A stretch of DNA of 64,000 bases, taken from contig NC_092317.1 of assembly GCF_036785885.1 (NCBI RefSeq), forward strand, positions 9,302,501 through 9,366,500, written 5' to 3'. Within the stretch, counting starts at the first letter, position 1. Each line of letters begins with the position of its first letter. A model generated the notes under the pieces. The model ran no database searches, had not been told where the DNA came from, and saw only the letters and a program-made list of their open reading frames with translations. Position numbers and translations under genes: made by a program. This DNA comes from Coffea arabica. Its lineage: Eukaryota; Streptophyta; Magnoliopsida; Gentianales; Rubiaceae. Shown here in pieces: positions 12,732-63,493 of this stretch.

Positions 12732-15304
12732 TCATGCCCATATGCAAATAGAACCATTCTTGTCAGATGTAGCTAGTGGTTTTCCAAAGCCACTCCATGT
12801 ACAACAGACAACTGAACCTTTGTGCTTCTTTAGAGTGCTTACTACACTACCATTTGATGTTGACCAAATAAGAACAGATCCATCTGCCGATCCAGCAGCA
12901 ATGTAATTGTCATCTGAACTGAGACAGGATCGGCTCCAGTTAGAAGCAACTCTACTGCCATTCGCTCTAAACGTGCCACAGATTTCTAGACTCCGCATGT
13001 CAAATAAATTGTGCATGTTGTCTCTCCCACTCGTCAATATTAGATTGCCATTATGGGATAGAGATAATGATGTAACAGCAAGTGAATGTGCTGCAACTTC
13101 ACTCAGAAGTTTACCAGTTTGGATATCCCACAGCCGAAGACATCCATCTACATGACCTGAGAAAATGGCTTGACCGTCCGTGCTAAAAGAAAGTGCATTG
13201 CAATTGCTGTGGAAGAGAAGTGTTTTCATACAATAACCAGTGTGCAGATCCCAAACTTTTATGGTACGATCATAAGCTGAGCTAACAACATGGTGGCTTG
13301 AAACTTTACTAACATCTACAGCACATACTTTCTCTACATGGCCCGTGAGAGTATGGCGTGCTCGGCCCGAATTTACATCCCAGGCAACTAAGTTGTTGGA
13401 AACACTGGCAGCAATGATGGTTCTGTTATCATGGGTGATAGAAAGATCAATAACAGAGCCCACACAGCCATGAAAGGTGCGCACCAATGCCCCGGTAGTT
13501 GTGTCCCACATGTTTACTACTCGGTCCTGCCCTCCGCTAATCAATTTGGTGGAGTTATGCTCAAACACTATAACATCACAGCCACCGTCATGTGCAGAGA
13601 TCTGTCGCTTGCATATGCTGGGAACAGTTGATTCCATGCAGTACTCATCCTCCTCTCTCAGGCGGACCACACCATCTACTTGTCGTCGAGCCAGCTGTTC
13701 GATACTGCTAGCCTTCATTTTGTTCATCATATCTTCAAACGTGGCATCTGCCTAACCAAAAAAAAAAAGGGAGAATTCATCATGTTCAACAGGCACCATA
13801 GCTGACATGTAAATGTTATACTTCTTACTTATCCATGTTAGGACTATGAGACTTCCTTCAATTTCTTAATTCCAACATAAAAAAAAAATTACAGGCAATA
13901 TATTAAAAAGAAAATGATGCTTGTACCTCATTCAGGTGTTCAGCTTCCTGCATCTTCTGCAGCATCCATCGATCAATTAACGTCTTGTTTTCTGCTTCAA
14001 GATCATCAGCTCTAACAGTTGCTGCTTCAAGTTGTATTTTCAGATCATTGTGCTCAGTCATGATAAGTTCTAGAGCTTCAGTCTTTTCTGCTAAGAGTGC
14101 GTTTAAACGAGAACATTCCTCCCTGTAATTAAAGAAAGTTCAGTCGCCATAAAATAACTAAAATCTTTAGTATCATATCTTGACATGGGAAACAGAAAAA
14201 TCCAAATTGGGTGGTCGATAACACCTCGATTGTGCAAGCTCATTTTCTAGATCAGTGATAAGGGCTTCTTTCTCCTGTACCAATGTTTTCGACTCCCTGG
14301 ATTCAGCAACTTCGACCACAAGCTGCTCTGACAATCGAGCTTGAGCTTTATAACATTGCTGAAGTTCCAATTCAAGATTTTCAGCTTTCGTTTTCCATTC
14401 TGAGCCCTTCGGTGCCACATATCAACGAGGTCAATCAAGATATCCAATGTCTAGTGAAATGCCAAGGACAAGTATTCACAACAGCAACACTTTCTATCAG
14501 ATTTCTACTCATCAAATTCTGAAATATTCAAAGCATACACAAAACCAAAGCCCTCGACGAATACTAGTACTCAGCATTGTCATATAAGAATCCATGAAAA
14601 CAAATGAAGAATATACACAGCATTGTCAAACAATCCCATAAACCCATGAAGACTTTAGTTGCAAACCTAATAAATAGTCAAGTTTAAAGCAAATTCTGCC
14701 CCATATCACGCTCCTCATATCTTGCTGCAACCTTGCAATTTCGTCAAGGAAAATAAACATATCCACTTGCATCTTTCATGTCATAAAGTTGTAATCTTCT
14801 GAAAGTTATTACTGCCTCACTGTGCAGTCTAAACAAATATACAACTTAACAACTTAAAGCGACGACTCAAAATAATCAATGAAAATTAAATAAAGAATAA
14901 AAACAATTAATTTTTAAGCAAGTTAACATGGCAGGCAAGTCAAGAATGCTATAAATAGTTAAAGGGGCCCCGAATGCTTTGATCTTAAAACTAGTTCACA
15001 ACCAAGAAAATCAGTATTAACAGTAGCAATCAAGTTGAATATCAGACGAATCAGGGAGATTATCCAAAAACCAAGCTAGCTAAAAGAAGCAAAAAAATAT
15101 AAATTGAATAACGGGGTCGGCCGGCAAGTACCTGAGAAAGAATCGGCCTAGCAAGAGCGAGGAAAGCTGGAGCATGAGCGGCTTCTTCGACTAAATGCCG
15201 TTTTCGAAGAGCCGTGATAGCTTGCTTGATTGCTTCTTTTGTTACTACTATATCGTCCTCTGGTTCAGGCCTAAACCCAAAACAAGAAAAAGAAAAATAT
15301 CAGA

Positions 15305-17525: not shown

Positions 17526-20333
17526 TCATGTCCATATACAGATAGAACCATTCTTATCAGATGTTGCTAGTGGTTTTCCAAAGCCACTCCATGAACAACA
17601 AAGAACTGAAGTTGTATGTTCCTTTAGAGTGCTTACAATTTTAGCATTTGATATTGACCAAATATGAACAGATCCATCAACAGATCCAGCAGCAACATAA
17701 TTGTCATCTGAACTGAGACAGGATCTGCTCCAATTAGATGCAACTCTGTTGCCATTTGCTCTGAATGTGCCACAAACTTCAAGGGTCCGCATGTCGAATA
17801 AATTGTGCAAGTTGTCTCTGCCACTTGTCAATATTGTGTTACCATTTCGAGATAGAGATAGTGATGTAACAGCAAGTGAATGTGCTGCAACCTCACTCAA
17901 AAGTTTACCAGTTTGTATATCCCACAGCCGAAGATTTCCATCTACATGACCTGAACAGATAGTTTGTCCATCTATGCTAAAAGTCAGCGCATTGCAATTG
18001 CTGGGGAAGAGAATTGTGTTAATACAGTAACCCTTCTGCAGATCCCAAACTTTTATGGTACGATCATAAGCTGCACTCACAACATGGCGACTTGAAATTT
18101 TACTAACATCTACAGCAACTACTTTCTCCATATGACCTGTGAGAGTATGGCGTGTTCTGGCTGAACTTGCATCCCAGACAACTAAATTCTTTGAACCACT
18201 AGCAGCTATGATGGTTCTGTTATCAGGGGTGATAGAAAGATCAAGAACAGAACCCACACAACCTTCAAAAGTGCGCACCAGTGCACCAGTGTTTGTGTCC
18301 CACATTTTCACATCTCGGTCCTGCCCTCCACTAATCAATTTGGTGGAGTTGTACTCAAATGCTATAGTACCACAGCCACCTTCATGTCCAGGGATCCGTT
18401 GCTTACACATATTGGGAATACTTGACTCCACATAGTACTCAGCACCCTCTTCACTTCGGCGGACCACACCATCTACTTGTTGACGAGCCAGCTGTTCTAT
18501 GCTGCTATTATTCACCTGGTCTAGCATATCTCCATATATTGCATTAGCCTAACAGATCAATAGATCACCAATCATATATAGATACGCATAAATAGCTAAC
18601 ATTTGAATTATATGTTTCAGTACAAAGACCATAATGCTCTTATGCAAACCCTATTTAACATGCATTAAGTAAATAAAATTAGTTTTGCATGTATCAGGTA
18701 AGTGAAAATCGTGCATTTACCAATCATATCTGACATATGGTAGTCAATGTGTGCATAGGTTGAAATTCATAAAAGAACAGCAGATATTATGTAATAAGAA
18801 TGATGTAATTACCACCAAGCTTGTGTACCTTGGCGACCGTAAGGACTCTTTTCAACAAAATTTAAAATGAAGCTTCAGGGGGTGGGGGAATATGATTTTA
18901 GTTCTGCCAGCAAAGTGAACTGAATTATATTGCTCAAGTCACTACCAAAGTAGAATCAAGCACGTACATCCAGGAAGAAGAAGAAGAGCCAAGCAAATGC
19001 ATTAACCAGAAAAAAGTCATCTTACCTCATTAAGGCGTTCAGCATCCTGCATCTTCTGCAGCATCCATCGATCAATTAGCATCTTATTCTCTGCTTCAAA
19101 CTTGTCCGCTCTAGCTTTTGCCTCTTCAAGTTGTGTTTTAAGAACCTGGTTTTCACTTATCATGAGTTCTAGAGCTTTAGTCTTTTCTTCTAAGAGTGTA
19201 TTCAAATCTGAACATTCATCCCTGCAATTTAAGAAACTTCATTCACCACACAGTTCCTGAAATTCCAACTTATAATCCTTAATTGAGAAAGTGGTTATCT
19301 AATTCAGATTTTCCATTCTATAAATGCAAACTGATTTCATATTTCGGACAGCAGATAAACCTTGCTTTTGCAAGCTCACTCTGTAGATCAGCTATAATGG
19401 CATCTTTCTCTTGAATTGCAGTTTTAAAAGTTCTTGATTCAGCCACTTCCACCACAAGCTGCTCTGACAATCGAGCCTGAGCTTTATAACACTGCTGAAG
19501 TTCCACTTCAAGATTTTCAGCTTTCTCTTTCCACTCTGAGCCCTTCAGAAGCAAATTTAACGATTCAATCCAGACATCTAATGTCCAACAAAACGCCGAA
19601 AACAAGTACAGATACGACCAACTCTCCCTATCAGATTGTTAACAAGCAAGACCATCTAACTTCAATCCAAATTTTAATAAAGCACGATGAAAACTCTCAA
19701 TGAGGTATTATTATACAATTAGAATGCCATAAACTAACAACTTTAGGCACCATATTCCAATCAATATGCAACAAAATTCCTCGAAAGCTAGATGCCTGAC
19801 CCTTATGATCGGTAAAACTCAAGTAAAGTGACAATGCCAAAAACCACCTAAATGCCTGCACTCAAGCAAGAAGATCCCCTACCATCACTATTAGAGAAAA
19901 TTAGTTCCTGGGTTTTGGAGATGAAAGATTTTTGTTCATCATTTCCCTTTTTCTTATCACTATTTTTAGCCCAAACTAATTTGCACAAGAAATAACAGAG
20001 GATCAACTGAAACTTAAAAAAAAAAAAAACTATATAAAACTAAATAAACAAGTCAAATATCAAGAATTCGAATTGGGGAGGTGGGGATTGATAGTACCTG
20101 AGAAAGAAGAGGCTTAGAAAGGGCGATGAAAGCCGGGGAATGAGCTGCTTCTTCCACCAAATGCCTTCTTCGAAGGGCTTTGATAGCATGCTTGATTGCT
20201 TCCTTCGCTATCTTTATTTCCTCCTCTTGCAAAGCCCTGAACCCCACAATTAATTTTTCATCAGCAAAGAATCAACAATAAAAGTATCATTAAATTTACT
20301 GGAACTAGTCCGAGGTTAGATTTATACTTACAT
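17526..20333 (-). CDS. ATG16: ATG16 autophagy protein, copy B
   Basis: Second intact ATG16, in the same orientation as copy A about 2 kb away. Coding exons are 20332-20333 (AT), 20098-20236, 19361-19542, 19026-19221 and 17526-18548, giving 513 residues. The three internal exons have exactly the lengths of copy A (139, 182 and 196 nt), so the two arose by tandem duplication. Order: N-terminal helix (KEAIKHAIKALRRRH), coiled coil (GSEWKEKAENLEVELQQCYK; KMLIDRWMLQKMQDAERLNE), WD40 propeller ending NGSICIWT. This copy looks closer than A to the usual sequence at several family positions (EGGCGTIAFEYNS, DRDVKMWDTNTGALV). As in A, the start codon is split AT|G. A hAT MITE lies about 190 bp upstream. 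Confidence 0.95.
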
Positions 20334-22404: not shown

Positions 22405-23712
22405 TCCCCCCTCAAATTGATGCGGGTTGACCAACAAGCTTCAATTTGTCAACCAGAAAATTGTGCCTATGACGGGAGAGAGCTTTAGTAAATATATCAG
22501 CAGTTTGGAGATCAGTGGTAATATGAGGAAGAGAAATAACATGATCATCATATGCTTCACGGATAGAGTGACAATCAACTTCAATATGTTTTGTACGCTC
22601 ATGGAATACAGGATTAGCAGCAATATGAATAGCGCTAGTATTATCGGCATGAAGGGGAGTAGGTGCAAGTTGGGGAAACCCAAACTCACCTAAGAGGCCT
22701 CGAAGCCAAATGATCTCAGAACATCCAGAGGACATAGCACGATACTCTGACTCAGTAGAGGATTTAGACACCCTATCTTGCTTTTTGCTTTTCCAAGAAA
22801 TAAGAGAATTTCCAAGAAACATGCACCAACCAGTAATTGATCGTCTAGTATCTGAACACCCTGCCCAGTCAGCGTCGCTATAGGCTACCAAATGAATAGG
22901 AGAATTTTTGGAGAAGAATAGACCACGAGAGGAAGTGCCTAGTAAATAGCGAATAATGCGACGAACAGCAGCTAGATGGAGATGCCTAGGCGTCTGCATA
23001 AATTGACTAACTTGTTAAACAGCAAATGAAATATCAGGCCGAGTAATAGTTAAATAGTTAAGACTTCCCACCAATTGCCGATAGAGAGAGGAATCTGAGA
23101 GAAAATCACCCTCATCACGGCGATATTTAACATTTACTTCCAAGGGAGTATCAACAGACCGACCATCTTGAAGACCTGCCAAAGCAATTAATTCCTGGAT
23201 GTATTTATGCTGATGTAAGAAAATACCAGCTGAGATAGAGTGCACTTCTAGGCCCAAAAAATATTGTAGAGGACCTAAATCTTTCATATGAAAAGAACGT
23301 TGAAGATGCTCTTGAAGTTGAGATATTAATGCAGAGTCATTTCCTGTGATAACAATATCATCAACATATACCAGAAGTAAAACCAGTCCCTTATCAGTCT
23401 TGCGAAGAAACAAAGAGGAGTCATACTGGCTCTGAACAAATGAGAAGCTAATAAGGGTAGAACGGAACTTATCAAACCAAGCCCGTGGAGCTTGTTTTAA
23501 GCCATAGAGTGAACGTTTTAGCTTACAAACATCAGAAGAAGATGTAAAAAAAAACCCTGATGGTGGAGTCATATAAATATCTTCTTGAAGATCGCCATGT
23601 AAAAAGGCATTCTTAACATCCATCTGTCGCAATGACCAGCCTGTAGAAACAGCAATAGCTAGAACAAGTCTAACTGTTGTCATCTTTGCCACAGGAGCAA
23701 AGGTCTCCTCAT

Positions 23713-24116
23713 AATGTACTCATAGTTGTCAAAATCGCGATCCGGATCGTAGGATCGTACGATCCTACGATCCGGATAACCAAAATCGATCCGGATCGTA
23801 TGCAGAGTCGCAAATCATATTAATCTTTGTAGGATCGCATAGAATCGTAGCAGGATCGGTAGGATCGTGTAGGATCGGTAGGATCGTACGATTCTACAAT
23901 TTTTTTGTAAATTTGTGAAATACGAAGCTCCATTTTGCAAGTAAATGAAAATATTTGTGGTATATTTGTAATTTATCAAAGAATTACAACCTTTAATTGC
24001 AATTAAGAGCTTTTGGTAGGATCTTACGATTCTACGATCCGATCCTACGATCCGATCCTGTGAAACTAAAATCGATCCTATGTAGGATCCCAATTTTACA
24101 AACCTTGAATGTACTC
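23713..24116. mobile_element. Mutator-type MITE nested in the copia element
   Basis: Element 23722-24107 (386 bp) with the 9-bp duplication aatgtactc (23713-23721 and 24108-24116). The termini are imperfect inverted repeats (tagttgtcaaaatcgcgatcc against aggtttgtaaaattgggatcc). The interior has many copies of aggatcgtacgatcc-type palindromes. It is younger than the copia copy it sits in. Confidence 0.85.
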
Positions 24117-26987
24117 CATACTTTTGCCGATTACCAAGAGCTACTAATCGTGCCTTATACCTTTCAAGTGAGCCATCAGATCTCAATTTAACAGAAAACA
24201 CCCATTTACAACCAATGGGTTTAACACCATCGGGACAAGGAACAATATCCCAAGTATGATTCTCCTGAAGAGCTTGAAGTTCCTCATTCATAGCTTTCAC
24301 CCAACATGCTTGTTTAGTTGCCTGTGAATAGGATGTAGGAACTGTAGTGTCAGTTATAGTGGCAGAAAAACCATACCGATCAGGCGGACGACTAAGACGT
24401 AGGGACCTTCGAAGAGTGGTTGGAGCAAGGACTGGATTAGTGTCAAGAAGAGGTTGTGATGAAGAAGCCTGTCGTCTCTGATAAACAATCCCAGGTTTAA
24501 ATCGATCAACTGGTGGAGCAATATCATCAAAGCTAGGAAGAACAACACCTTCAGACGAGGAAACATGGTATGGAAAGTAGTGCTCATTTTCAAAGAAAAT
24601 CACATTTCTAGAAATGTGTAGATGATTAGCAATAGCATCATAACACAAAAATCCTTTATGAGTTGTACTATAACCCATGAAAGCACATTTTACAGATTGA
24701 GCTGTAAGTTTGTGACGCTCATGAGGAGGTAAGTGAACAAAGCCAACACATCCGAATGTGTGTAGATTGCCATAATCAGGATGTACACCAAAGAGACGAT
24801 AATAAGGAGAATCAAAATTCAACCGTTGAGAAGGTAGACGATTGATTAAATAAACTGCAGTGGATAAAGCTTCCACCCAAAATTTAGATGGAACCGAAGA
24901 CTGCAAGAGTAAGGTGCGTACCATATCCAACAAATGGCGATGCTTACGTTCAGCCACCCCATTCTGTTGAGGGGTATAAGGACATGATCGTTGAGATAAA
25001 ATACCTCTCTGTTGCAAAAATGCTTGAAAGGCATGTGACATATATTCCCCGCCATTGTCAGAGCGTAAAACTTTAATGCAAGTAGAAAATTGTGTTTCTA
25101 CATAAGCTACAAATTTCTTAAAAACAGCAAATACTTCAGCTTTAGTACGCAAAAAATATACCCATGTGAAACGACTATAGTCATCAATGAATGTCACAAA
25201 ATATTTATATTGTGCATGTGAAACAACAGGAGTAATACCCCAAACATCACTATGAATGATCTCAAAACTTGTATTAGCATGACCACCATGACTAGGAAAA
25301 TGTAATTTTTACTTTTCCCTAGTCTACAAGTAGAACAATCAAAAGACAATTTATGATTAAAACACTGATCCTTGCTCCCCAGAAAATCGTGCTTTATTAA
25401 ATGAGATAAAATGACATTATTTGGATGACCCAATCGTTGATGCCATACTTCAACTTTATTGTCAACAACCATAGAAGCCAAAGACAAACTACTTGGAACT
25501 GAAAATTGCAAAGGAAATAGTCTGCCCACTTTAGGCCCCTTCGCGATCACCTTCCCCGACACCTGGTCCTGCACAAGACAACCATCACGAGAGAACCGTA
25601 CATCACAGTTATTATCCACCATCTGACCAACAGAAATCAAACTCGTAGACAACCCTGGAGAGACAAATACATGACGAAAAGAAGGTCCAATATCACCAAT
25701 GGCTGTAATTGGAAGATTACTGCCGTTAGCAATCTGAATATTTTGTGTACCAGTATATTGCCGTAGATTATGTAGTGATACAGATGAACCAGTCATATGA
25801 TTTGATGCTCCAGAATCAACTAACCAAGGAGTAGAAACAATTTTACCTTGACCTTGAAGTCCAAGAGCAGAAAATGCTGAAAGAATCATTTGTTGAACCA
25901 TTTCTGGAGTAAGTGTTGTGGCTGTGGATGTAGAACCAATAGTGTTAGAGTCTTGGACAGCACCTTGAAAGGCTTGGACTCTTCGATTCTCAGGGCGTGT
26001 AGGACAGTCCTTGATAATGTGTCCAATTTGCTTACAATAATTGCAAAATTTCTTTCCACAATTGCGTGCAATATGCCCAAGTTCCTTGCAACTATAGCAC
26101 TGTACTTGTCCCTTTCCGCGATTCTTCCCTTGAGCAGCATAGGCAATATTGACAACTTCAGATATCTCCTTTGATGTACCTATGATAGTTTGTGTAGCCA
26201 TTCTCTGTTCTTCTCGCAACAAGTCACCAAGACATACGTCTAAAGAAGGAACTGGGTTTCTATTTAACAATCCAGCTCTAATCGCCTCAAATTCAGGCCT
26301 CAGTTTCATTAGAAACTGGTCACGCTTACTATCTTCGTGAACCGCTTGAATACCGGCTAAGGCTTCGCTTGGTACCTTAGAATAGATTATACCAGAGTAT
26401 TCACTCCATAAATTAAGAAATCCAGAATAATACTGCTCAATAGAGAGATTACCTTGGCTATATGTACTAATTTCCAATTCAAGCTGAAATCTTCTTGCTG
26501 TATTATCTTGATGATATACACGCTTCAAATGATCCCACATCTCCTTTGCTGTATTAAAAGAGCGTAAATTGTTCACCATATGAGCTTCAATAGATGCTAG
26601 AATCCAAGAAATAATTCTAGCATCCTTTGCCTCCCATTGACTAATTTCCTTTCCATCTCTAGGTGCTGTAGAAGACCCGTCAATATGACTCCAAAGCTCT
26701 TTGCCTTTTAGAAACATCCTAAATTGAAATTCCCATGCCGCATAATTTTTTCCAGTGAACTTGATGGACAAAGATTCCGTATGTATTTTTCCCAAAGAGT
26801 TTTCCATAGACATTCTTTCAAAAAAAAACAAAGATCTGAATTACAAGAAAAGCTGCCAACCACAATATGATTGACCCAAAAGGATATCTTGAAACCAAAT
26901 GATTGATCAAAATAATCAACCCAAGAAGGATAACAACTCAGAAAGTTTGGAAAGGCTGAGAAATTCAAATAACTGGCTCTGATACCA

Positions 26988-29481: not shown

Positions 29482-32400
29482 TCAACAGAAGAACATTGAG
29501 GAACGCACATCCTTGTGCAACTTGGGAAGTTCTGAAGGGGATGGAATTCGGTTTCCTGGATACATCTTCCTTGTTTTATCAGACTTGAACAACTCTAACA
29601 TCTGAGCTGCAGCCAAGCGTGCATAGCGGATTGGAGCAACTGCAAGAAGCACGATTGTTAGTGATTTTAAAGTAGTATTTCTGGATGTAAATGCAAGAAA
29701 ACCAAAATGGTTAGCTCATCATGGCAGAATAAGAAGTCTAGGGCTCCACCCAGAGAGAACAAAGCTTCTCCATCCTCTCCTGGACGTGACGTGACAGTAG
29801 GGCAGCAAGTCATCAAATTAACAGCTTGAGATGGGAAACCTGGTTTCATTTTCTATTTCTCTCGCTGAAAATGATCATAACTGATGTGTACTAATGCAAG
29901 AATGACCTATTAATAGGTTCTGCACAAATGTCTGAACTTAGATCCAAAGCTCTAATCTAACTGGTAAAGTGAGAGTTTGGTACCTTCGGAAATGGCAGTC
30001 GTGCTTTTCTGGTACCTATAAAATGTACAAACGCTAAGTTTCTGGAGCTCTGTAAATCAAATGAAGGATATTAAGATGATTGTCAACTTACACATATGAT
30101 AAACAATGAATAAGTTCCTGTATTTCATCAGATGAGAAACCAATCTCATCTAACAGAACATGATAATGAGTAGGCCTTGCTGTTCCCTAAAGTGAGACAA
30201 GAAACATTTAAGCCATCAGATACATTTTTCCACCGTCAAAAAAAGAAGATGTAGCAATAGCTAGATTCCATAGCATTGTATTTTCTTTTCTTTTTTTTCC
30301 CTAATGCGAAAGCAAAGAGGAGTTGCAAGGGTCATCAGATCAGTGGCAGCCTTCCTATCTTGGCCTTTACATGGAACCTTCCTCTCCCAAAGGAAACGAA
30401 ATGAAAAACCAAATTCAAGCAATTATGCAGGTACTAATGCATGGTTTACTCAATTTGAGTTGGTGTAAAGGTGGTGCTGCTGTCTTTCATGAGATGAGTG
30501 TTGTTTGGTCTATATAACAGTCTCACCTTCTTAGCTATATGGGGGCACAAGAAGAAGTTGTTACATTTTGCATGACAAATCTTTTTGTCCACAACAGTTC
30601 CTGCAAAGAACAAGGACAATAAACATATGTTTTAAATGGTCAACATTGATGCTTAAAGGAGCCAGAATGTTACCAGGAGGAACATTGTCAACGGGAGAAG
30701 CTTTAATGAATTTTGTGTGATGTGATCTCTCTGATATAATCAAAGTGAACTTAGGACACCAGGTCTCATCAAGCAATTTGCATGCCTACAGAAGATAGGA
30801 GGTAGTAACTAAAAAGTGTCAACTTACAGTATGGGGGAAGACAATATATACGTCTAAGCACAAAGACATAATAAACCTTGAAAATTTGATCCATCTCATT
30901 GTTTAGAAGTTGATTGAACTGTGTTGTGCTGAGTCCATTCCTAAAGAACAAAAAAACCAGTGAGTAATGATTAGCACCAAATCCTGCCACTTTCGGAACT
31001 CTCACATTTGATGGATAGTTAAAGAATGAAGATTCTTTTTTTGATAATGGCACAAAGATAATAGCGCTAACTGAGCAGATTTAAGTTAACAGCGCACTGA
31101 AAAAAGATGGGATTTTAGATTGGAAGCATTCAAAGGAAGATTACAAGGGGATGTGATTGCTACTAAATTTTAATGTGGCTGGAAAATTGCCAAAAAACCT
31201 GTTATGCCTTTCTTAGCTAGGTGGAGTTTGATCTTCAAAGTCTGGCCCAAAATCTAAGCGTGACTAAATAACTTACAATTCTGGTTCTGTCAAGGAGCAT
31301 AAACATTGATTCCCATAGCTGTATGTGCCTTAATCTTAATTCATGTAGAGAAATGATTAATGCATCTAGTAGTGTTAGAGAACATAAAGTCTACTGAGGA
31401 ATGAGTATTACCGCATAATAACAAAAGATATCAGATAAAGACTAATTAATCCTTAATAGAAAATACACCTGAAAATGATGATTTGTGCAGGTTTTTTCTG
31501 TCCTGAACTTGCATAGAAATCCATCAGTAGCTCCCTGTTAAATAAGAAGAATAAAAATTAGACTACTCCAAGTACTCATAATAACACTTTGATATACTAG
31601 ATGATAAACTGAGGTCAATAATTTCCAGCCAAGAACGGTTCCATTGCATCATCAATTTTGTAGGTAATAGCTAATAGGTATCCAGAAAGGACACCATATA
31701 CGCCTGTAGTTCCTCATTCCCTTTTGTATGTGTTATTTTTACTATACAGGGAAAGGGAGACGCTACCTGATCATTCCCTTGTCCTCCTGTTGGGACACTT
31801 GCCTAAACAGTGAATCCATCATTTGGTCGTTCCTAGTCTGCGTATGAATAGATGCTCTATAGCAGGAAATTGATGGCCATTGTCTAGAGCCAACCACCTA
31901 AGTCAACAAAGAGAACCAATGGGTGAAAATGATTTCTACACTGATCTATATTTGATTTATTAGTTATTGAAACCAGAGTCCACACTAACTGGTACTTGAA
32001 CCTGAGCATCAGTACAAGAGGACACTTACTGCGGCAATGGGAGGTAGCTCTGACTGCCCATCGACACATGGCATGACTTCCATTCCCAAAATCATTGTAG
32101 GAATCTTCGATACCCAAGGGATGGTTCTTGTCATCTCAGAAGCTAATCTTGTATTAAAGCCACCGAGCTGCAAGAAGGCAACTTGTTACATGAGAGAGAT
32201 AAAATATATGCAAATTAAGAATCAAGTTTGTACTGAAGAACATTACTTTTGCATTAATCTTCAAAAGAACATGCAGCAGATAACTCTCATCAACTCTATC
32301 ATTTGCAAGGCACTGATTTGGAACTCCAACCTCAGCCAGGCTTTTCCATTTCCAATAACCTAAAAGAAGAAACTCAATCTTTGACTAAAATATAAAACTT

Positions 32401-35141
32401 GAAAGACGTGTCTAGTCAAATGATGTTTGGAACAAACCATATAGAGGACTCTGTCGTTTCTCAGATAAGAAACAAAGCACAAAGTAAAGAGGGTTGTTGC
32501 GAACTTTTGAGCTTATTTGCTCACACATCTTCTCCACTCTAACATGTGGTGGTTTCTTTCTGTATTGGGGATTCTCTTCAAAGACACATACTGGGGGATC
32601 CAATGTCTAGAAATTGGAAACAAGATAAGCTATGCAATAGATAGAGCAACTCAGTAGTAAACCTACTGGAGAAGTGAAACATATATGAAGACAAAGAAGT
32701 CTACCACTCCTATCTTTGCACCAAGTTTTGCCAACTCTTGACAGAAATTGCGGGTGTAATGCTGACTAGAGAAGTTTACCACTGCCCAGCACTGAACTCT
32801 TTTTGGTTCCACGAGCTTCTATTTAAGATGTAAATGGCTATTAGAACCAATAATGTAGAATTTCCACATTAAATATTTCATTCACCTTATCTTTAAAGCT
32901 CCATGAGGCATGTCTAGGAATAAGATCTTCATTGTTTCCCACTTTCAACTGCAACAGTGGGATAGATTGGAACCATCAGAGTTATTCAAGTTTAGACAAA
33001 TGCCCAATGGGACATTAAAATTGTAGAAAGCAGAAAAACTGTCAGAATACCCTGGGTGCTGATAATACACGACCTTCAACTTGGGTGTAACTATTAGAAA
33101 TTGAAAGGCCACAAGAAAGCAACAGTGGATCCGCATTGTAATTACAGTGCCTCAGTTCCTGAGAAAGAGATATATTTTAGTATGAACTCCAATTGTTGCT
33201 TTAACCAAACTGCGGTGATAGTCGTAAAATAAGTGGTCGTTGACCTACATTTGTCAAAACCAAGTATAATTCTTCTGGCTGTATGCTTGATTTTGATACC
33301 CTCATTCTCCTCTGATGATTGGTCAATGCTTTTTTATAATGTTGCAAAGAAACCAATGAACAGAGCTGAATAAATTACACGAATTACATCACATTTTTTC
33401 CCAAGAAATCGTGACTGCCGGCTGCATGGATTAATTAACTTGAAAATACAGAGAAAATACAAAGAAGACAAAATTTTTCACCTCAACTGGAAAATAAGTT
33501 GGTCTGCATGGTTTTCCAGCATCGATGCATGGCAGGTCTGCAGAGTAAGTCAATGAAATGCCAAGCACTTTAGTAAAATAATCATATACCGTCATTTCTT
33601 TTTGTTGGAGAAGAGCAACTTGATTACTTCCTCCATCTAGTTTACACCAAAATCTGCGGAGGATTATCAGCAACGCATTAAGGGAAGAAGAAGCATCATT
33701 TTTGGCCGGCCAAAATTTGCCATAAAATCATAGCAGTTGAACTTACTTCTCTTGCTTGCAGGACTTCTCTGAAAGCCCAGTGATTCTCCATTCACGGTTG
33801 TTGTGCGCTACCTTTATCCTTAAATTCTTTAATGTTCGTTTTGCCTTGTGTAGAATGAGCAGAAAAACACCTGAGGAAGGTTCATCTACATGGTCTGCGA
33901 ACTTAACATCAATATAATTTTTATTACCTGCAACCAGTCAACCTTGAAGGGATCGCTCACATTTTGGTGGCTGATGAGAAAATTAATCACTGGACCAGGC
34001 TGAACAATTGTTGTAGTAGTCACATCTGGCATTTGAAATATATTAGCTACTAGGAGACCTACTTTGAAACCTGAATCTAAATGATGTCTTACCAAAATTC
34101 AAATATAATCCACCCTGGAGATCCTGAAACCTTGAACTGAAACCTCTACAACCAAAAACGCCATCACCCAAGTCCATGAAATTCTTTGAGTCATTTGAGA
34201 AGTATGATTGGCGAAGAACAAGATATTCCCTAAACAAAATTTTCAATTTAAATGGAAGTGATGCAAGAGGAACAAGGAATCTCCAAGCCAGTCATGCACG
34301 TACTGTTTAGCTGCATGTTGCCTTAAAATGGTATCTAAGACTTTCAGGCCTTCATGCTTCTCTGGTCCTTGTTCGCTTGTTGTATTCGTAATCTGCTGTG
34401 TAGAAATGGTTGCCACAAAGCTCATTTGTATCTTAAAAGTTTTGGCTGAAGACATAAGCCTATGCCTCTTTTGATCATTTTCACAGGGACTCTCTTTGCC
34501 GCTAAGATTACCTCCTCCAGAAACTCTGAATTAAAGAAAAGACCTTGTAAATTGAACCAGCAAATACTACAGGATATTACAAAACCACAAACGAGAGAAG
34601 GAAAAAATTTCCTGTTACCTTTTTAGCGAGATGGCGTTAAGCACAACAACAAAGTCCAGATTATTTCGTGGGAGACAACCAACTGTATATAAGTTCTTAA
34701 ATCCATCATACGCAAATGATTTTTCAGCTAGTTCTGATTTGTATGTCTCATGGGCTTGAGCTATAACCTTTCTTCTAAGGTTTGAACTGCCAACAAGCTT
34801 CCCATTGTCATGCAAGATGGAAACCTGTAGGAAGACATTAAAACTTCAGGAATGCAGAAATCCCCTTCTCATCAGAATATAGGAAGGCAGGAGTTTACAT
34901 TGTAATGGTAGAAGTCAGGAATCTTAGCAGCAACAGAGACTTTGAAATGATTAGTCAGTAGCAATATTTTCAGTCCTTTGGACCCGGGGCAAGGCGGGTT
35001 CATCACTTTGCTCTTCTGATTTAAGAGTTCAACCCTCTCAGTCTCAGGTCCCTTTTCTACTTCTATTCGCATGGGAGCTACTGTCAAAAGCTGTTCAGCG
35101 AGTGGCCCAGCACAATGCTTTGATAAGTCTGCAGGCTTCAT
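29482..35141 (-). CDS. AGO: Argonaute of the AGO4/6/9 clade with all four slicer residues substituted
   Basis: Small-RNA-binding protein; this clade guides RNA-directed DNA methylation. Coding exons (minus): 34899-35141, 34619-34824, 34304-34525, 34093-34229, 33928-34025, 33747-33844, 33482-33653, 33249-33365, 33051-33158, 32886-32948, 32708-32818, 32438-32606, 32247-32359, 32030-32167, 31767-31897, 31469-31534, 30877-30940, 30674-30785, 30527-30600, 30092-30186, 29984-30015, 29482-29639. All introns are GT-AG and phases match throughout: 908 residues, no break (AGO4 about 924). N domain, PAZ (DYF...YSADLPCIDAGKP), MID, PIWI, conserved end SSMFFC. The MID 5'-phosphate pocket is kept (Y581, K585, Q597, K615, K619). 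The catalytic DEDH positions read E649 (GMEVMPC for GMDVSHG), Q690, N732 (IFRNGL for IFRDGV) and R864 (YARLAAAQ for YAHLAAAQ). A 5'-UTR intron ends at 35151, nine bases before the ATG; its upstream exon was not found. Loading without cleavage is inference; early pseudogenisation is the alternative. Confidence 0.93.
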
Positions 35142-61042: not shown

Positions 61043-61114
61043 TGCCCCCATGCTGGATCAAACTACAGACCTTCAGTTTACAAGACTGATACTCTACCAT
61101 TGAGCTATAGAGGC
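61043..61114 (-). pseudogene. tRNA-Thr copy 1, degenerate
   Basis: 72 nt, anticodon TGT kept. Changes in the acceptor stem (GCCTCTA), T stem and box B (GTTTGATCC) make it a probable pseudogene. Confidence 0.8.
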
Positions 61115-61433
61115 CTCCTGACGCTCTTCCATTCATAATTGCTAAAATCTATACTATAGATAAAGGGAGAGAGAAGGTATTAGTGTAATCTGTTTGTTTC
61201 ACTTTTATAATTTCTATTTTACCCTCTAAGTACAAGACCAAATGGTATCATCATCCCCCTAAAATAAACACACACAAATACACACAACATCCTCATTTCT
61301 AGACTAATAAAACCTCTAATAAGATAATAACTGCCAACAATTTTCCATCAAAAAAAAAGAGAGAAAGAAAAACATAATTATTCCATTCATATTAAAAAAA
61401 AAATTCTCCTAGATGTTTTGCTAGTGGTAGAGC

Positions 61434-61505
61434 TGCCCCCATGCAGGATCGAACTACAGACCTTCAGTTTACAAGACTGACGCTCTACCACTGAGCTATA
61501 GGGGC
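61434..61505 (-). tRNA. trnT-UGU: tRNA-Thr(UGU), copy 2
   Basis: 72 nt. Acceptor GCCCCTA pairs with TGGGGGC (one G-T); D stem GCTC/GAGC; anticodon stem TCAGT/ACTGA around loop CTTGTAA (anticodon TGT); T stem TGTAG/CTGCA with loop TTCGATC. Box A TAGCTCAGTGG and box B GTTCGATCC are both good, and a T-run for Pol III stop lies downstream on the minus strand. Identical to copy 8. Confidence 0.93.
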
Positions 61506-61772
61506 ATCCTGGCTTCTGAGATTCGCTTGTTCTTAAATCACAAAAATATAAATACACACAAATTAAACACACACAAAAATGGTATCATCATCCCCCTAAA
61601 ATAAACACACACAAATACACACAACATCTTCATTTCTAGACTAATAAAACCTCTAATAAGATAATAACTGCCAACAATTTTCCATCCAAAAAAAAGAGAG
61701 AAAGAAAAACATAATTCTTCCATTCATATTAAAAACAAAAAATTCTCCAAGATGTTTTGCTAGTGACAGAGC

Positions 61773-61844
61773 TGCCCCCATGCGGGATTGAACTACAGAC
61801 CTTCAGTTTACAAGACTGACACTCTACCACTGAGCTATAGGGGC
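61773..61844 (-). tRNA. tRNA-Thr(UGU), copy 3, borderline
   Basis: Same fold, but with a G-T pair in the D stem (GCTC/GAGT) and one T-stem mismatch (TGTAG/CCGCA). It may be weakly functional or dead. Confidence 0.6.
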
Positions 61845-62097
61845 CTCCTGGCATCTAAGATTCGCTCGTTCTTAAATCACAAAAATACAAATACACACAA
61901 ATTAAACACACACAAAAATGGTATCAACATCCCGTAAAATAAACACACACAAATACACACAACATCCTTATTTCTAGATGTTTTGTTGGTAACAGAGTTG
62001 CCATAATTCTTCCAAAAAAAAAAGAGAGAAAGAAAAACATAATTCTTCCATTCATATTAAAAAAAAAATCTCCTAGATGTTTTGCTGGTAACAGAGT

Positions 62098-62169
62098 TGC
62101 CCCTATGCAGGATCGAACTACAGACCTTCAGTTTACAAGACTGACGCTCTACCACTGAGCTATAGGGGC
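62098..62169 (-). tRNA. trnT-UGU: tRNA-Thr(UGU), copy 4
   Basis: Differs from copies 2 and 8 by one base, which turns the acceptor stem into seven Watson-Crick pairs (GCCCCTA/TAGGGGC). Looks intact. Confidence 0.9.
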
Positions 62170-62435
62170 CTCCTGGCTTTTGAGATTCGCTCGTTCTTAA
62201 ATCACAAAAATACGAATACACACAAATTAAACACACACAAAAATGGTATCATCATCCCCGTAAATAAACACACACAAATACACACAACATCCTCATTTCT
62301 AGACTAATAAAACCTCTAATAAGATAATAACTGCCAACAATTTTCCATCCAAAAAAAAGAGAGAAAGAAAAACATAATTCTTCCATTCATATTAAAAACA
62401 AAAAATTCTCCAAGATGTTTTGCTAGTGACAGAGC

Positions 62436-62507
62436 TGCCCCCATGCGGGATTGAACTATAGACCTTCAGTTTACAAGACTGACACTCTACCACTAAGCTA
62501 TAGGGGC
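62436..62507 (-). pseudogene. tRNA-Thr copy 5, degenerate
   Basis: Anticodon TGT kept; D stem (GCTT/GAGT) and T stem (TATAG/CCGCA) weakened. Shares changes with copy 3, so the two units are sister duplicates. Confidence 0.75.
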
Positions 62508-62761
62508 CTCCTGACTTCTAAGATTCGCTCGTTCTTAAATCACAAAAATACAAATACACACAAATTAAACACACACAAAAATGGTATCGTCATCCCCCTA
62601 AAATAAACACACACAACATCCTTATTTTTAGACTAATAAAACCTCTAATAAGATAATAACTGCCAACAATTTTCCATCCAAAAAAAAGAGAGAAAGAAAA
62701 ACATAATTCTTCCATTCATATTTAAAAAAAAATTTCCTACATGTTTTGCTGGTAACAGAGT

Positions 62762-62833
62762 TGCCCCCATGCAGGATCGAACTACAGACCTTCAGTTTAC
62801 AAGATTGACGTTCTACCACTGAGCTATAGGGGC
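62762..62833 (-). pseudogene. tRNA-Thr copy 6, degenerate
   Basis: D stem GCTC/GAAC and anticodon stem TCAAT/ACTGA each carry a mismatch; boxes A and B are otherwise good. Confidence 0.7.
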
Positions 62834-63087
62834 CTCCTGGCTTCTAAGATTCGCTGGTTCTTAAATCACAAAAATACAAATACACACAAATTAAACACAC
62901 ACAAAAATGGTATCATCATCCCCCTAAAATAAACACACACAACATCCTTATTTTTAGACTAATAAAACCTCTAATAAGATAATAACTGCCAACAATTTTC
63001 CATTCAAAAAAAAGAGAGAAAGAAAAACATAATTCTTCCATTCAAATTTAAAAAAACATTTCCTACATGTTTTGCTGGTAACAGAGT

Positions 63088-63159
63088 TGCCCCCATGTAG
63101 GATCGAACTACAGACCTTCAGTTTACAAGACTGACGTTCTACCACTGAGCTATAGAGGC
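63088..63159 (-). pseudogene. tRNA-Thr copy 7, degenerate
   Basis: Acceptor GCCTCTA and D stem GAAC weakened; T stem fully paired (TGTAG/CTACA). Shares the D-stem change with copy 6. Confidence 0.7.
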
Positions 63160-63421
63160 CTCCTGGCTTCTAAGATTCGCTCATTCTTAAATCACAAAAA
63201 TACAAATACACACAAATTAAACACACACAAAAATGGTATCATCATCCCCTAAAATAAACACACACAAATACACACAACATCCTTATTTCTAGACTAATAA
63301 AACCTCTAATAAGATAATAACTGCCAACAATTTTCCATCCAAAAAAAAGAGAGAAAGAAAAACATAATTCTTCCATTCATATTTAAAAAAAATTTCCTAC
63401 ATATTTAGCTGGTAACAGAGT

Positions 63422-63493
63422 TGCCCCCATGCAGGATCGAACTACAGACCTTCAGTTTACAAGACTGACGCTCTACCACTGAGCTATAGGGGC
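63422..63493 (-). tRNA. trnT-UGU: tRNA-Thr(UGU), copy 8
   Basis: Identical over 72 nt to copy 2: full cloverleaf, anticodon TGT, good internal promoter boxes, and an A-run on the plus strand (a T-run for the transcript) about 35 bp past the 3' end. Confidence 0.93.

Follow-up and report, generated by a model that had tools for sequence, protein, structure and literature searches.

Can an Argonaute that has lost every residue of its slicer site still be a gene that selection keeps? The question is raised by a minus-strand locus in a 64,000-nucleotide stretch of Coffea arabica DNA (the window; contig NC_092317.1, here C8, positions 9302501–9366500). The genome searched comprised 1,197,963,845 bases in 131 contigs. 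An earlier note on the window had proposed an intact Argonaute that binds small RNA and cannot cut. Our best explanation, with a probability of about 0.55, is that the gene is the C. arabica counterpart of CcAGO4.1 of Coffea canephora, a divergent AGO4-clade protein that would have lost slicing, would still be selectively kept and would bind without cutting.

Spliced protein-to-DNA alignment yielded a frame without stop or frameshift (Table 1). The 22 in-phase exons and the conserved C-terminus described earlier were recovered, and the length was 909 residues rather than 908. All 21 introns are GT-AG; the aligner accepted as donors GT only, or GC before AAG, and as acceptors AG, so this result is a consistency check. 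The alignment query was a by-eye reading of the three-frame translation, and the alignment tests consistency, not exon choice. Exon choice is supported by a second copy of the gene (L009) and by exon lengths in two paralogues, Y and Z, which also have 22 coding exons, most of them of the same lengths. Five of the six Argonaute models of Pfam (ArgoN, ArgoL1, PAZ, ArgoL2 and Piwi) scored above their cut-offs, and ArgoMid scored 26.6 bits, slightly under its cut-off of 27.5. The N-PAZ-MID-PIWI architecture is present.

To place the catalytic residues, the protein was aligned to three AGO4-clade loci (X, Y and Z) and five AGO1/5/7/10-type loci of the same genome, the latter named from chromosome position; two AGO2-type loci were left out, here and in the trees. 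The tetrad columns were also set against an AGO1 chain from a PDB search. None of the four residues of the Asp-Glu-Asp-His (DEDH) tetrad is kept in the window protein, which reads E650-Q691-N733-R865, and X, Y and Z all retain DEDH. Next to the first catalytic residue, Met-Pro (M652, P653) replaces the Ser/Thr-His pair. The 5′-phosphate pocket is kept (Y582, K586, Q598, K616 and K620). In a residue-list comparison, 6/6 entries of the 5′ pocket were kept, and 6/6 entries of the tetrad plus Ser/Thr-His pair were changed. We considered a mis-aligned tetrad and rejected it: the motifs at each site align gap-free to the three AGO4-clade paralogues, and the AGO1 chain agrees. The replaced tetrad and the kept MID pocket of the earlier note are therefore borne out, with its tetrad numbers (E649, Q690, N732 and R864) each one too low. 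For the active paralogue that it placed elsewhere in the genome, X, Y and Z are candidates. Its statement that known AGO4, AGO6 and AGO9 keep the tetrad holds for these three paralogues, but not for two published exceptions, CcAGO4.1 and Solanaceae AGO15.

The changes are enriched at the catalytic site but are not confined to it. Among 154 positions identical in the eight other AGO loci, 29 differ in the window protein: 4/18 in N+L1, 2/16 in PAZ, 1/9 in L2, 3/18 in MID and 19/93 in PIWI, with domain borders set by hand here and in the domain fits below. Leave-one-out counts for the paralogues were 2/156 (X), 5/159 (Y) and 6/158 (Z). Loss of 4/4 tetrad residues against 19/93 in PIWI, the tetrad being counted in both, has a hypergeometric P of 0.0013. 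A pattern beyond chance, as claimed earlier, is thus upheld, but 25 of the 29 changes lie outside the tetrad. In the residue lists used for PAZ, the seed, L2 and the tryptophan pocket some positions may be misassigned, and the main weight is given to the tetrad, the Ser/Thr-His pair and the 5′ pocket.

The window protein is 48–53% identical to the three AGO4-clade loci and 28–34% identical to the five AGO1/5/7/10-type loci, and a maximum-likelihood tree groups it with X, Y and Z. The first coding exon that the aligner gave for X (L018, L019) is doubtful, and the first 34 residues of X were dropped for trees and codon fits but kept in the comparisons of copy pairs given below. In the own-genome tree the window gene falls outside (X,Y) with a support of 92 and a branch of 0.82. 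Approximately unbiased (AU) tests did not reject a position as sister to X (0.088), sister to Z (0.059) or basal to X, Y and Z (0.20). A position as sister to Y, as expected of a duplicate of that paralogue, was rejected (0.029). These comparisons place the gene, though divergent, in the AGO4 clade.

A literature search on the gene's names returned PMC5407642 as the sole match. There, CcAGO4.1 combines Cc04_g10830 and Cc04_g10840 on C. canephora chromosome 4, and its residues at the AtAGO1 positions D760, D845, H986 and H798 are E, N, R and R. The window gene shares the chromosome (4, here deduced from contig pairing) and the motif (E650, N733, R865 and R688), and the two have the same spacing of 38 between the Glu and the H798 position. 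The E-to-N spacing is 61 in the published protein vs. 83 here, and the gap equals the 22 codons of exon 16. As judged from published residues and spacing, the two are very probably the same locus, CcAGO4.1 being its form in one parent species. The published sequence is a partial GenScan model (PIWI 355–465), whereas the window gene has a full 909-residue frame, intact in both copies. Sharing of the changes by a sister species, a check proposed earlier, is seen for E, N and R; the sections of PMC5407642 used here score H798 and the DDH residues but leave the glutamate finger aside. Both the locus and the absence of its triad have thus been published. New relative to the searched literature are the complete, unbroken frame in both copies, the replacement of the glutamate finger and of the Ser/Thr-His pair, and the signs of purifying selection.

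The second copy, on contig C7, has 22 exons and 909 residues, with no stop and no frameshift. It differs from the window gene by 11 nonsynonymous and 10 synonymous changes, a nonsynonymous to synonymous rate ratio (dN/dS) of 0.30 from 21 differences only, within the range of the paralogue pairs (0.33, 0.17 and 0.21). The 11 amino-acid differences leave the tetrad and the 5′ pocket untouched. The introns of the two copies differ at 27 of 2893 sites and by 4 indel events. The exons have no indels, which is weak evidence because the three paralogue pairs also lack exon indels. The C. arabica high-fidelity (HiFi) read assembly has 22 pseudochromosomes, and its reference individual is a di-haploid line (PMC11018527), so paired contigs are more likely subgenomes than haplotypes, and the copies would then be homeologs. 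C. canephora has 11 reported AGO genes, 10 placed on chromosomes and one unplaced (PMC5407642). For each of the 10, an AGO locus lies on the contig pair that numbering of the pairs by chromosome would predict; counts from the genome Piwi profile search are lower bounds. Paralogue Z also resembles CcAGO16 in its wider D-to-D spacing of 91, exon 15 of Z being 24 bases longer than that of the window gene. From the contig-pair agreement and this spacing, each subgenome most likely carries one of the two copies.

Codon models were fitted to eight sequences (both copies of the window gene and of each of X, Y and Z; 858 gap-free columns). The stem branch of the window gene had a dN/dS (ω) of 0.185 vs. 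0.073 for the background, and ω = 1 was rejected (twice the log-likelihood difference, 2ΔlnL, 37.7); synonymous change of ∼1.5 per site on the stem makes this ω rough. In fits covering N+L1, PAZ, MID and PIWI (L2 left out), ω = 1 was rejected in each (2ΔlnL 8.8, 14.5, 7.7 and 12.4, respectively), although both tip lengths reached zero in some of them, a sign of weak convergence. The tip ω was 0.32, with ω = 1 disfavored (2ΔlnL 5.6). These fits indicate that selection on the stem is purifying, though weaker than in the paralogues. The intact frame, the kept pocket and the rejection of ω = 1 in each of the four stretches make simple decay unlikely, in line with the argument of the earlier note.

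Neutral decay was also simulated (2000 runs each; 0.124 indels per substitution, taken from the introns of the two copies; a frameshift share of 0.7 among indels and 84 splice-site bases, both assumed). One copy was still intact with a frequency of 0.111 at a dS of 0.005, 0.025 at 0.0086 and 0.001 at 0.017. At the ∼0.0086 per lineage accumulated since the split, both copies would be intact with a probability of ∼6 × 10⁻⁴ if independent. Three degenerate AGO4-clade copies from two loci were each scored with the paralogue nearest to them. Frameshifts and stops number 4 and 5 in L016 (scored with Y), 5 and 5 in L017 (also with Y), and 9 and 8 in L024 (scored with Z). Chance decay was rejected as the leading explanation, since both copies are intact, the simulation is unfavorable and it is the degenerate copies that are heavily broken. 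As to position, L016 and L017 lie ∼140 to 150 kb from intact Y, on both contigs of a pair (C1 and C2). L024 (C9:36310000–36319999), a decayed copy of Z, lies ∼70 kb from it on C9, and no C10 counterpart was among the matches listed from the Piwi search.

Several observations weigh against any function, most strongly the reported silence of the counterpart and the relaxation seen across the protein. In C. canephora, CcAGO4.1 was reported as unexpressed in stem and in leaves of three stages, and its authors offer functionalization or loss of function, reading the silence as favoring an inactive protein (PMC5407642). Silence of the gene, which the earlier note had set against its own proposal, is thus in part what is published, for the counterpart and in leaf and stem libraries. 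The window protein is relaxed overall, with conserved positions changed in every domain. At two L2 positions it lacks the Arg common to the three AGO4-clade paralogues (R401H and R425L), and one PAZ position is Leu where these paralogues have Arg. The stem evolved faster than the remaining tree, a single ω being rejected in favor of two ratios (2ΔlnL 12.3). The limits attached above to the copy comparison, the absent exon indels and the stem and tip fits count on the same side. The silence, the raised stem rate and the losses in all domains would suit a gene on its way out, its promoter silenced and its frame intact since loss was very recent. We consider this unlikely, because both copies are intact against the odds of the simulation and the dN/dS between them is that of ordinary paralogue pairs. 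The observed/expected CpG ratio of the coding sequence (0.33) is also like that of the paralogues (0.32–0.39); methylation-driven decay through CpG loss was rejected on the same figure, by which the window gene is not clearly different. Arabidopsis AGO8, an AGO4-type gene, is termed a pseudogene (PMC11194062); unlike such a gene, the window gene has an unbroken frame and splice sites and a dN/dS that is not near 1.

Residual cutting by way of E650 and other ligands is very improbable. Glutamate is able to bind metal, but charge or shape is lost at three of the four ligand positions (E to Q, D to N and H to R), and Met-Pro stands in place of the Ser/Thr-His pair. Human AGO1 and AGO4 carry fewer changes and slice poorly or not at all. 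Alignment of PDB chains 5w6v and 6oon, which we take to be these two proteins, shows natural Argonautes with an incomplete tetrad and Arg at the fourth position; unlike the window protein, they belong to another clade and keep the first Asp. Animal AGOs act with GW182, which is missing in plants (PMC10772731). In potato, the StAGO15 tetrad is G667-E708-Q750-R882, G-E-Q-R for DEDH, and its authors suggest that the third change may leave function unaffected (PMC7689493), a point in favor of residual cutting. Against it, the D742A change alone makes Arabidopsis AGO4 slicing-defective (PMC10069450).

If the window gene is a selectively kept Argonaute that binds without cutting, 24-nt small interfering RNA (siRNA) duplexes would be loaded through the kept 5′ pocket, neither passenger nor target RNA would be sliced, and the protein would act by binding alone. 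It might serve as a brake, competing with the active AGO4 paralogues for siRNAs and damping RNA-directed DNA methylation, or as a weak effector that recruits partners without cutting. Its expression would probably be confined to particular tissues or stress. The nearest functional model is the engineered slicing-defective form of Arabidopsis AGO4, a member of the same clade whose natural form, unlike that predicted here, slices passenger and target. With this single change (D742A), AGO4 carries 24-nt siRNAs with unsliced 23-nt passenger strands, and CHG and CHH methylation is restored only partly (PMC10069450). On that ground we lean slightly toward the brake. Catalytic-mutant AGO4, AGO6 and AGO9 RNA-induced silencing complexes (RISCs) bind RNA and DNA with picomolar dissociation constants (PMC11194062). 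For the small-RNA-binding, non-cutting Argonaute proposed earlier, frame, pocket and tetrad loss agree; decoy, recruiter and competitor are not told apart by sequence. Whether AGO4-clade proteins are of use without slicing has been asked with engineered mutants. If the proposal is true, (i) a natural, selectively kept, tetrad-less AGO4-clade protein would be a direct example, and might act as a brake on DNA methylation; and (ii) the published picture of CcAGO4.1, drawn from a partial model and from leaf and stem libraries, would need amending.

The age of the loss turns on Solanaceae AGO15. The window gene may be its coffee ortholog, the slicer having been lost already in the common lamiid ancestor and the letters having drifted later, a reading to which we give slightly less than an even chance. 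AGO15 lies deep in the AGO4 clade, as the window gene may do, and both have ruined tetrads that end in Arg (for AGO15, in potato). Expression is reported as similarly low: SlAGO15 was undetected in tomato organs (PMC3847217), CaAGO15 was barely detected in pepper (PMC5979589), and coffee transcripts (those of CcAGO4.1) were absent from leaf and stem; StAGO15 is described as activated upon pathogen challenge. Sizes are close (893 aa and 6.0 kb in pepper). AGO15 and AGO1B are both on tomato chromosome 3, and the window locus and AGO1 are both on coffee chromosome 4, which may be chance. On the other side, potato AGO15 retains the glutamate finger, whereas the window protein has Gln there (G-E-Q-R vs. 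E-Q-N-R), and a position beside paralogue X was not rejected in the own-genome tree. The residue spacings of 83 and 132, which potato AGO15 has too, also occur in two ordinary coffee AGO4s and are uninformative. Orthology was judged from published descriptions of the Solanaceae genes. The ortholog reading is compatible with the best explanation and would date the slicer loss. One old slicer-dead lineage for coffee and Solanaceae is plausible from these likenesses. A fuller version is doubtful: a slicer-dead lineage older than the coffee/nightshade split would have been kept across lamiids as a conditionally expressed AGO4 antagonist or non-cutting partner, its catalytic sites drifting to EQNR in coffee and to GEQR in potato as selection continued to preserve guide binding.

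Table 1. Coordinates of the window Argonaute gene, its exons and its replaced catalytic codons (window positions).
Feature	Position	Strand	Evidence
AGO4-clade Argonaute gene, start to stop codon (TGA, 29484–29482), 22 exons, 909 aa	29482..35141	-	spliced alignment, Pfam
Exon 1 (start codon 35141–35139)	34899..35141	-	spliced alignment
Exon 2	34619..34824	-	spliced alignment
Exon 3	34304..34525	-	spliced alignment
Exon 4	34093..34229	-	spliced alignment
Exon 5	33928..34025	-	spliced alignment
Exon 6	33747..33844	-	spliced alignment
Exon 7	33482..33653	-	spliced alignment
Exon 8	33249..33365	-	spliced alignment
Exon 9	33051..33158	-	spliced alignment
Exon 10	32886..32948	-	spliced alignment
Exon 11	32705..32818	-	spliced alignment
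Exon 12 (last residue, 5′-phosphate pocket Y582)	32438..32606	-	spliced alignment
Exon 13 (pocket K586, Q598, K616, K620)	32247..32359	-	spliced alignment
Exon 14 (E650 replaces first catalytic Asp; M652, P653 replace Ser/Thr-His)	32030..32167	-	spliced and protein alignments
Codon GAA, E650 (GAT Asp in three AGO4-clade paralogues)	32078..32080	-	position hand-counted from exon table
Exon 15 (Q691 replaces glutamate finger; R688 at AtAGO1 H798 position)	31767..31897	-	spliced and protein alignments
Codon CAA, Q691 (GAG or GAA Glu in three AGO4-clade paralogues)	31823..31825	-	position hand-counted
Exon 16 (66 nt; perhaps skipped in published C. canephora model)	31469..31534	-	spliced alignment; residue spacing
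Exon 17 (N733 replaces second catalytic Asp)	30877..30940	-	spliced and protein alignments
Codon AAT, N733 (GAT Asp in three AGO4-clade paralogues)	30937..30939	-	position hand-counted
Exon 18	30674..30785	-	spliced alignment
Exon 19	30527..30600	-	spliced alignment
Exon 20	30092..30186	-	spliced alignment
Exon 21	29984..30015	-	spliced alignment
Exon 22 (R865 replaces catalytic His; conserved C-terminus SMFFC)	29485..29639	-	spliced and protein alignments
Codon CGC, R865 (CAT His in three AGO4-clade paralogues)	29617..29619	-	position hand-counted

Elsewhere in the window, all on the minus strand, several open frames at 22412–26831 hold Ty1/copia-like polyprotein pieces (family named by eye), ∼2.7 kb past the Argonaute gene on its 3′ side. 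Two WD40-like open frames (12732–13730 and 17526–18527, also named by eye) are similar to each other and resemble a tandem duplication. Eight tRNA-Thr (TGT) genes stand in tandem at 61043–63493, ∼330 to 390 bases apart.

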